Below, piece by piece: positions 18,749 to 21,507 of a DNA stretch of 40,054 nucleotides. The translations under genes and the position numbers were made by a program. Positions within the stretch are counted from its first letter, which is position 1. The number at the start of each line of letters is the position of its first letter. Location: positions 1 through 40,054 of the forward strand of contig JAAETJ010000505.1 of assembly GCA_024228495.1 (NCBI GenBank), in the 5' to 3' direction. The notes under the pieces were generated by a model. That model was not told the DNA's origin. It saw only the letters and a program-made list of their open reading frames with translations, and did not search any database. The stretch comes from a bacterium. GTDB taxonomy: Bacteria > Pseudomonadota > Alphaproteobacteria > Rhizobiales > JAKIUO01.

Positions 18749-19102
18749 CTACCGACAGTCGTCGGCAGGTTTTTCTGAGTGCTTCTCAATATACTGAAGT
18801 ATGATGTCATCAGTTATCTGACCACTTGTGGTACTGAAATAGCCCCTGCCCCAAAATCTGCGATCCCGGTACCTCTTTCTCTGTTCGGGAAACTCTTGCT
18901 GGATTTTTCGCGATGTGCGTCCTTTGATGACCCTCATCAAATTACTGATCGATACTTTGGAATGCACCGACACGAACATATGCACATGATCACTCGACAG
19001 CACACCACTGATGATAGTCACACCGAGTTCGCCACAGACTTGACGAGTGATTTCCCGGATACGCTACCGCATCTCTCCGCGCAAAATCTTGAACCGGTAT
19101 CA
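18749..19102 (-). pseudogene. IS200/IS605-family transposase relic (TnpA)
   Basis: The minus strand encodes a Y1 transposase remnant: SSDHVHMFVSV holds the HxH metal site, KGRTSRKIQQEFPEQRKRY and FWGRGYFSTTSG follow, and ILQYIEKH holds the catalytic Tyr. Upstream the same frame reads YRFKILRGEMR, then an in-frame TAG (19064-19066), then RIREITRQVCGELGV. A TGA at 19100-19102 stops anything earlier, and the first part of the family is missing. It is therefore dead, though the HUH core is intact. A small hairpin (CCGAC / GTCGG, 18752-18765) overlaps its end. Confidence 0.8.
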
Positions 19103-19163: not shown

Positions 19164-19979
19164 TTATATCTTCAGATCGACAATCACCGGTGCATGATCA
19201 GAGGGGCGCTCCCAACTGCGAGCCGGTTCTACAACCTGCATATAGGTCGCACACCCTTCCAGACTTGGCGTCATCCACACATGATCAAGGCGCCGGCCCC
19301 GATTGCTGGCCTGCCAGTCCTTTGCCCGATAGCTCCACCAGGTAAAAAGTTTTTCCTCGTCCGGTACATGACAGCGCATGACGTCAATCCATGACAGCGA
19401 TTGCGCAACCTTGTCGAGATGCTCGACCTCAATAGGCGTATGAGAGACAATTTTCAGCATTCGCTTGTGTGACCAGACATCATTTTCCAGAGGGGCGATA
19501 TTGAGATCCCCCACCAGGATCATCGGGGCATCGCGATCTTTTTGTTTGCGAAACGTTTTCGCCATATCGGTTAAAAAATCAAGCTTGTGAGCAAATTTTG
19601 GATTGGTCTTTTTATCAGGGGCATCGCCACCAGCTGGAACATAGAAATTGTGAATTTGCACGGGCTTGCCATTGCGCTTGACCCCCGGCATTTCCACATT
19701 CAGGTGACGGGCTTCATCAATACCGCCAAACACCGTGCGCTCAACGGTGCGCAAAGGCATGCGAGCCAAGGTCGCGACGCCATGATAGGCTTTTTGTCCG
19801 TTCAACTCGACATGCTCATAGCCCTGGGCTGCCAGCTCATCGAGCGGAAATTGCTCATTTTGGCATTTAATTTCCTGCAGGCATAAAACATCAACCTCAT
19901 ATTCTTGCAAAAACCGCAGGATCTGCGGCATGCGCAATCGCGCTGAATTGATATTCCACGTGGCCAGTCTGATGTTCAT
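19164..19979 (-). CDS. xth: Exodeoxyribonuclease III
   Basis: Exonuclease III / AP endonuclease for base-excision repair. The 271-residue protein starts MNIRLATWNINSARLR and has the active-site Glu in LCLQEIKCQ (near 36), the VGDLNIAP strand with Asp and Asn, and a terminal SDHAPVIVDL with Asp and His. The length and start agree with the family. In relatives it lies beside lolA and ftsK, as here, separated by an HTH fragment and a structured gene-free region. Confidence 0.95.
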   Translation of the reverse strand: MNIRLATWNINSARLRMPQILRFLQEYEVDVLCLQEIKCQNEQFPLDELAAQGYEHVELNGQKAYHGVATLARMPLRTVERTVFGGIDEARHLNVEMPGVKRNGKPVQIHNFYVPAGGDAPDKKTNPKFAHKLDFLTDMAKTFRKQKDRDAPMILVGDLNIAPLENDVWSHKRMLKIVSHTPIEVEHLDKVAQSLSWIDVMRCHVPDEEKLFTWWSYRAKDWQASNRGRRLDHVWMTPSLEGCATYMQVVEPARSWERPSDHAPVIVDLKI

Positions 19980-20067: not shown

Positions 20068-20274
20068 ATGACCAAAACAGATGCAAGATCCATGGAGCCC
20101 AAAACTCAGGAGCAGCTTCGCGAGCAAGCGATAAGGCTGTGGCACAAGGGTAAAAAATACGCAGAGATCGCCGATATTGTCGGCGTTAGCGAAAACACCG
20201 TTGGCAAACATACCCAGGTAACACCAGTCTCAACTTTTTCCAGTTCCCATACCGAACGAAACGTGATTCCATGA
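20068..20274 (+). pseudogene. Orphan helix-turn-helix fragment, probably transposase N-terminus
   Basis: A frame of 68 codons whose first half (TQEQLREQAIRLWHKGKKYA followed by EIADIVGVSENTVGKH) is a clear helix-turn-helix of the kind found at the N-terminus of transposases and small terminases. After GKH the sequence loses resemblance and ends in low-complexity residues. I take it as the stub of a mobile-element gene. It could also be a tiny real regulator, but no ribosome site is obvious. Confidence 0.4.
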
Positions 20275-20315
20275 GGTTGTAAACCAACCGACCATTATCT
20301 GACATGGAGGGTTGC

Positions 20316-20548
20316 CCCGTTTCAGAGTTGAAACGGGTATCATAAAACAAAGGTTTTTGAGAGGTGCGCCGCCATTCTCAAACAGTGTGAGCTGGTGTCA
20401 CTTAATTTGAGCTGAAAATCACCTTGTTTGCGAGGCGTTACATCTATTGGTCCACAAGAAAACAAAAAACAAGACGTTCGGCTCAAATCTGGGGGATGAG
20501 CCGAACACCTGTTTACCGTTTCTACGGGCGTCGGGAGGGCACCGACGC
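20316..20548. ncRNA. Gene-free region with four strong hairpins; candidate structured RNA
   Basis: Four perfect stems follow each other: CCCGTTTCA/TGAAACGGG (20316-20337, 4-base loop), TTTGAGA/TCTCAAA (20356-20382), GTTCGGCTCA/TGAGCCGAAC (20476-20506) and GCGTCGG/CCGACGC (20528-20548). A weaker GGTG/CACC stem lies at about 20394-20424. There is no open frame with coding character. I tried to fit 6S, tmRNA, SRP and RNase P RNA and none matched. It may be an unrecognised small RNA or structured ends of a lost element. Strand unknown. Confidence 0.4.
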
Positions 20549-20724
20549 TTAGTGATCGCCGCTTGGGATAGCAAGAGAGGGCTAAGATCCTAAGAACATT
20601 TGACGATTACCTTGACTCATAGATATGTTCTTTTTGAACCAATACAAGGCCACACGCAAAAAGGACTGAAAACCGGTGTTTTCTATCCGTTATCGCTCGA
20701 CTATAGCCAACGTTCCGGGCATCT

Positions 20725-21507
20725 TTATTTTTCGCCAAATACGTTTTCAAGAGCAATATTTGAAGCAGCAAACAGCTTTTTGCCAAGCTTCTTCTCATAG
20801 TTCAGATTGCTGATCTCAATCCGCGTATGCAACCCTTGCGCATCTGTGATGACCCATTCTTTCAGCTTTATGTCTGGCAGAGAGAAAAACAATTGAATCT
20901 GACCAGCCGACTGGCCACTTCTGTCGGCCAATTTAATCGAAGCGCTGGTATCTGAACTTGCCAGGGCCAAAATCCGAGCATCCCGTTGCAAATCTACATT
21001 TTTGGTCAGCAACATTCTAAAGGGTGTTGATTCGAGGGGATATTTATTGACGGTCTTGAGATCATGATCTTCGATCGAGAGATATTCCCCGTCAGAAACG
21101 ATGCGCAGGCGGCTGGGGCGTGCATAGTCAAAACGCATGCGTCCGGGGCGCAAAACATAGAACACTCCCTTTTGCACCACATTGTCAGGATTGGTCTGAA
21201 TGAACTGGCCTTCAAGATCATTGAACTTTTGCATAAAGGTATTGATCTTTTGCAGCAGTTTGCGCTGATCTTCTGGCAATGCAGAGCTGTCACTATCAGG
21301 TTCAGCTGGCGTTACTTCGGCTGTCCAGGCACTCCCAGAAATAGCATTGACGGGGGGTTTTTCCTTACTGACGCGCACATCATCAAGCGCCATGGAGGGG
21401 ACCGAGAACCCCACACAAATCAACAAGCCAGCAATCAGTAAGCTGGCATTCCAGAGCACAGCACCACACCAGTCTTCAACGTCAAAATCAGGCCCCGAAA
21501 ATTTCAT
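20725..21507 (-). CDS. lolA: Outer-membrane lipoprotein carrier protein LolA
   Basis: LolA ferries lipoproteins across the periplasm from LolCDE to the outer membrane. The 260-residue product has an N-terminal hydrophobic signal (LLIAGLLICVGFSVPSMA) and a LolA domain from about residue 85: LLQKINTFMQKFNDLEGQFI, GVFYVLRPGRMRFDYARP, YLSIEDHDLKTVNKYPLEST and PFRMLL. An acidic/Pro linker precedes the domain. It is typically placed next to ftsK in Hyphomicrobiales. Confidence 0.92.
   Translation of the reverse strand: MKFSGPDFDVEDWCGAVLWNASLLIAGLLICVGFSVPSMALDDVRVSKEKPPVNAISGSAWTAEVTPAEPDSDSSALPEDQRKLLQKINTFMQKFNDLEGQFIQTNPDNVVQKGVFYVLRPGRMRFDYARPSRLRIVSDGEYLSIEDHDLKTVNKYPLESTPFRMLLTKNVDLQRDARILALASSDTSASIKLADRSGQSAGQIQLFFSLPDIKLKEWVITDAQGLHTRIEISNLNYEKKLGKKLFAASNIALENVFGEK

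Follow-up and report, generated by a model that had tools for sequence, protein, structure and literature searches.

The gap between xth and lolA in this DNA (the window, meaning the whole analysed stretch of 40,054 nt) contains two unrelated things: a predicted small-RNA gene in its right part and an insertion-sequence (IS) end with a palindromic repeat in its left part. In our model of the locus, the minus strand quite probably encodes a stand-alone small RNA of ~155 nt, the homologue of Caulobacter RusT at the lolA–xth locus. This RNA would be transcribed from its own promoter, ended by an intrinsic terminator and assisted by Hfq. The gene was found with a promoter-like box, a terminator and four hairpins, between lolA and xth and on the same strand as both. 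The features of the locus are as follows:

19164–19979, minus strand: xth (exodeoxyribonuclease III), downstream neighbour (Pfam Exo_endo_phos, E 1.7e-29)
20219–20318, plus strand: truncated remnant of an IS end, aligning with the IS ends at L002 and L003; outside the RNA
20315–20337, no strand: dispersed palindromic repeat CCCCGTTTCAGAGTTGAAACGGG, whose 20-bp core has further copies in the genome; outside the RNA
20459–20613, minus strand: predicted small-RNA gene, RusT-locus homologue, ~155 nt, with its start placed from the -10 box
20459–20506, minus strand: H4, intrinsic terminator (20476–20485 with 20497–20506), then a U-run (T-rich tail 20459–20475)
20516–20527, minus strand: H3, small hairpin CCGU-AGAA-ACGG
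20528–20548, minus strand: H2, hairpin GCGUCGG-UGCCCUC-CCGACGC, with the loop (20535–20541) as proposed pairing seed
20551–20611, minus strand: P1 stem, base of the composite first hairpin (20604–20611 with 20551–20558), from folds
20562–20594, minus strand: P2 stem (20587–20594 with 20562–20569) with a C-rich apical loop (20570–20586), from the alignment and folds
20620–20625, minus strand: -10 box TATCTA, after a 16-nt spacer; CATATCTAT is invariant in five congeners, the window's genome included
20642–20647, minus strand: -35 box TTGTAT, conserved in congeners
20658–20688, minus strand: terminator-like hairpin of lolA, 5' of the RNA promoter, conserved in five congeners
20725–21507, minus strand: lolA, upstream neighbour (Pfam LolA, E 1.2e-28)

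Structure of the predicted small-RNA gene

The sequence-only reading had described 20316–20548 as a gene-free region with four perfect stems of 7–10 bp and more structure than expected. All four stems are there, at 20316–20337 (9 bp with a 4-nt loop), 20354–20383 (7 bp), 20476–20506 (10 bp) and 20528–20548 (7 bp). No convincing protein-coding open reading frame (ORF) was found in the span, and it is more stably folded than any of 200 dinucleotide shuffles, whichever strand is taken (z -3.4 on the plus strand and -5.2 on the minus strand). The span itself, however, joins unrelated parts and cuts through a conserved element. It is incomplete because P1, P2 and the promoter of the minus-strand RNA fall outside it. 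The predicted RNA, from 20613 to 20459, folds with a z of -5.7. A plus-strand reading was rejected, as the conserved promoter box, the terminator and the orientation of the neighbours all indicate the minus strand.

The promoter of the RNA is separated from lolA by the hairpin at 20658–20688. Across the window's genus the -35 box reads CTTGTAT or CTTGAAA in the alignment, and boxes resembling the -10 box are also present 5' of the majority of distant homologues. Of 54 homologues, 46 have a TTGNA box 26–42 nt 5' of the RNA start, whereas shuffled sequences gave 2.8 on average and never more than 8; most of the boxes in the homologues are TTGAA. At the other end, the structured RNA in the congener alignment finishes with a strong hairpin, followed in most by a U-run.

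The hairpins themselves are maintained by compensating changes, as a covariance analysis of homologous regions, which the sequence-only reading had proposed as a check, makes clear. The consensus structure was set by voting over single-sequence folds. In an alignment of 19 sequences, 93.3% of the cells are paired and 22 of 38 pairs have changed on both sides (13.4 when shuffled), and sliding the partners as a control lowers the pairing to 33–44%. When the window's genus is included, H2 and H4 together are 98.4% paired, with 13 of their 18 pairs changed on both sides. The seven pairs of the H2 stem are 99.4% paired (four changed on both sides), the 11 pairs of H4 are 97.7% paired in 24 homologues (nine changed on both sides), and P1 has changed on both sides in 10 of 13 pairs. 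H3 appears in the folds of nearly all homologues, with variable sequence. Pairing is thus kept in relatives of the RNA, where its lack had been named as a reason to drop the idea.

Conservation is higher in the loops than in the stems. It is strongest in the C-rich loop of H2, where CCCUCC is the same in all 24 aligned homologues. The P2 loop is GCCCCCCGUCU or GCCCCCCCGCU across most of the class, but it has drifted in the window's genus.

Spread across the Alphaproteobacteria

The conservation of the locus is seen already among its closest relatives. A query of 20270–20720 found a long match, 70–86% identical, between lolA and xth in each of the four same-genus genomes. In these four congeners no conservation was found for the spacer at 20338–20443, nor for the IS remnant and the palindrome. 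A covariance model built from five congeners (R1) was then used for a blind scan of 298 genomes from the order. Outside the genus, it gave 10 matches with E < 1e-3, every one immediately after lolA and on its strand, in most cases with ftsK and xth nearby; the five weaker matches all lie at other places. In the window's genome the R1 scan finds a single copy of the RNA; several copies had been named as grounds against a small RNA, and only the palindrome and the IS end are repeated. On 80 named loci fetched via Xth, R1 points to the same position in Methyloceanibacter, Methyloligella and other Hyphomicrobiales.

A second model (R2), built from 19 relatives with the window's genus left out, recovers the window RNA at 20461–20615 (41.7 bits, E 3.8e-8); because the training relatives came from R1, this recovery is not fully independent, unlike the synteny and the promoter box. 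A blind R2 scan of 385 genomes of the class gave matches in 43. At these loci lolA and/or xth lie within the fetched stretch in 23 of the 30 fetched and in 21 of the 24 best. Of the three exceptions among the best 24, two (L140 and L142) carry the RNA at full length, but near an aminotransferase gene. Among 18 named genomes examined, the RNA lies at lolA in Kaistia hirudinis, Methyloligella sp. GL2, a Marinicaulis metagenome-assembled genome (MAG) and Lutibaculum baratangense, the last having xth elsewhere; no match was found in Sinorhizobium, Rhizobium, Nitratireductor, Xanthobacter, Ancylobacter, Fulvimarina, Methylocystis or Aureimonas. In those matchless genomes that were read and have adjoining lolA and xth, the gap is mostly ~90–175 nt.

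The RNA comes in two lengths. In the long class (~150 nt), single-sequence folds give the same four hairpins almost throughout. A shorter class of ~120 nt occupies the same locus in six cases (L145, L147, L148, L152, L155 and L158). The RNA is spread over many alphaproteobacterial families, which suggests that it is an ancient feature of many Alphaproteobacteria and not a speciality of Caulobacter.

Other forms were seen in passing. An Afifella locus (L105, 4720–5000) has an apparently shortened form, below the R2 threshold, in which the GCCCCCCGUCU loop and the terminator are kept and H2 seems to be lost. Three probably sphingomonad loci (L175, L180 and L181) carry another candidate RNA with a C-rich loop in the lolA–xth gap (UUUCCCCCCUGUUGCC and a terminator), which in L181 is a weak R2 match.

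RusT, proposed function and rival readings

The known RNA that matches this place is RusT (CCNA_R0199) of Caulobacter crescentus, a 118-nt RNA that lies between lolA and xth, on their strand and with its own promoter (PMC11005374). It has four stem-loops, the last of which is the terminator; it depends on Hfq, which contacts it at stem-loop 3 (PMC11005374). The seed of RusT is in the loop of stem-loop 2 (nt 45–57, with C53), and the RNA acts by base-pairing there (PMC11005374). It is induced by iron starvation or zinc excess and repressed by NtrX, and its main targets, which it represses, are TonB-dependent receptors (PMC11005374). Homologues have been reported only from Caulobacteraceae close to C. 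crescentus (PMC11005374).

The window RNA resembles RusT in its place and strand at lolA–xth, its own promoter, its four stem-loops and its final terminator with a U-run; the conserved loop of its second hairpin may likewise be the seed. Its H3 occupies the place of the Hfq-binding stem-loop 3, and an Hfq gene is present in the window's genome and in three congeners. It differs from RusT in length (~155 nt vs 118 nt), in its long first hairpin, which has a separate C-rich apical loop, and in the absence of the main target class of RusT from its genome. The two RNAs are linked by an intermediate. Genome G573 has a 114-nt R2 match at lolA–xth (E 3e-5 in 46 kb), and the loop of its hairpin 2 is AUCCCCUUCCCGG. 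This genome and its relative G650 probably belong to the Caulobacter family, judged by MipZ: against the Caulobacter protein, theirs score 372 and 386 bits, far above the 216 of a genome outside their family. By locus, architecture and this profile match to a probable Caulobacter-family genome, the window RNA is likely, though not proven, to be homologous to RusT. The guess of a new small RNA was therefore right for the right half of the span, on its minus strand, and wrong in taking the RNA as wholly new. The Rfam family CC2171 (RF01867), tried as a marker for Caulobacteraceae, proved unspecific (matches in 84 of 385 class genomes, 13 of them above the cut-off) and was discarded.

Other known RNAs were considered as well. 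A search of Rfam 15, another check proposed from the sequence, matched no family at the RNA under either strict (gathering threshold) or permissive settings; it gave only chance matches, for example, to a plant microRNA precursor and a Streptococcus small RNA. The 6S RNA (RF00013), which is structured and of similar length, has no match at this locus and lies at another place in the genome (G000:C19), in agreement with the earlier judgement that the region is not 6S. Like the predicted RNA, the alpha-R8 family and NfeR1 are alphaproteobacterial trans-acting small RNAs, and they have C/U-rich pairing loops. No Rfam family of alphaproteobacterial small RNAs matches the RNA even permissively. The alpha-R8 family corresponds to SisA–D of Caulobacter (PMC12559287) and NfeR1 is found in rhizobia (PMC10746234). 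GsrN of Caulobacter also has an exposed C-rich loop, which recognises G-rich target sites; it is driven by a sigma-T (EcfG) promoter, and its homologues are usually near general-stress genes (PMC5869019). Identity with GsrN was rejected on the lolA–xth locus and on the promoter box, which is of the TTGNA type and not of the sigma-T/EcfG kind.

How might such an RNA work? By analogy with RusT, it is probably an antisense repressor that acts through its C-rich loops with the help of Hfq. RNA polymerase would start near 20613 and stop after H4. The C-rich loops, that is, the almost invariant UGCCCUC of H2 and the P2 loop, would stay single-stranded and could pair with G-rich, Shine-Dalgarno-like stretches or ribosome-binding regions of mRNAs, and Hfq may bind near H3 and aid the annealing. 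Under stress, translation of the target mRNAs, probably those of envelope or transport genes, would usually be repressed. These targets must differ from those of RusT at least in part because the window's genome, rated 99% complete, has no detectable TonB Plug domain (PF07715), while the same search detects the domain in the Caulobacter control; TonB receptors were rejected as targets on this ground. Perfect complements of the H2 loop before an ATG, sought in five congeners, gave no convincing conserved target: those common to several congeners have no long frame after the ATG or lie in differing contexts. The sole candidate worth noting, a weak one, is a channel-like membrane protein common to two congeners.

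Of course, the shared locus could mislead. It is possible, though rather unlikely, that the RNA is a conserved small RNA at the locus of RusT and yet no homologue of it, the site having hosted unrelated RNAs in which C-rich loops arose repeatedly. The presence of two architectures at lolA–xth (~150 nt and ~120 nt) and of a third C-rich form in sphingomonad-like genomes would fit such a history, as would the unequal lengths of the window RNA and RusT and the missing target class. However, a single covariance model detects both length classes, and it also detects the short RNA of the probable Caulobacter-family genome at the E-value given above, an RNA that has a similar C-rich H2 loop, hairpin order and set of neighbours. 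An improbable alternative is that the RNA titrates a protein, either in the manner of 6S or through a protein that binds C-rich loops, in place of pairing with mRNAs. Strong structure and exposed loops that are more conserved than the stems are what one would expect of such an RNA, but 6S is encoded elsewhere in this genome, no Rfam family matches, and RusT base-pairs through its loop 2 (PMC11005374).

Two further readings explain the structure without a trans-acting RNA. That it is a conserved terminator or leader of lolA or xth is very improbable: it does have a co-oriented gene on each side and a terminator at its end, but lolA has its own terminator-like hairpin, the RNA has its own promoter box, and it stops before xth, more than 100 nt short in several genomes. 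In Lutibaculum, moreover, the RNA adjoins lolA though xth is elsewhere, and invariant loops are not needed by terminators. The sequence-only reading had also offered the structured end of a lost mobile element, and there is indeed an IS end and a dispersed palindrome abutting the left side. As an account of the RNA this can hardly be entertained, since the RNA is present in one copy per genome at a fixed locus across families and the IS remnant stops at 20318, ~140 nt away. The mobile-element reading is contradicted for the RNA and holds for 20219–20337 only.

We lean slightly towards the view that the RNA dates back to an ancestor of much of the Alphaproteobacteria and has stayed fixed beside lolA, with RusT as a shortened branch and the conserved pairing module rewired to other targets. 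If this is true, the loops are older than the known regulon, and lineages without TonB receptors use them on other envelope or metabolic mRNAs. The kind of RNA is already known, and so is a named RNA at the locus in one family. What is new is the occurrence of the RNA in many families, a longer form that has a second C-rich loop, a promoter box found across the class, the lack of an Rfam entry and a conserved seed whose known target class is missing. Most of what is known about small RNAs in Alphaproteobacteria comes from single genera, and a class-wide RNA absent from Rfam would rank among the older small-RNA families of the class. It would also be a natural setting in which to see how targets are gained and lost around a conserved seed, and the covariance model provides a concrete means of annotating it.

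Mobile-element debris in the left half

The guess of a mobile-element end is borne out for 20219–20318, which aligns with two IS ends and interrupts an ORF with an HTH_23 domain. This ORF, the helix-turn-helix fragment that had been noticed nearby, starts at 20068 and is broken at about 20219. Longer copies of the IS end lie in the window's genome at G000:C216 (L003) and G000:C977 (L002), and the 110-aa ORF of the IS end has no Pfam name. The palindrome at 20315–20337 can also be written as CCGTTTCAGAGTTGAAACGG; its copies at L006, L007 and L008 share a longer unit of ~55 bp, which runs to ACATCTG..CTGATGGAATATG. On the far side of xth, at 18752–19021 on the minus strand, lies an IS200-like transposase (Y1_Tnp) lacking its N-terminal part, its profile being matched from position 42 only.
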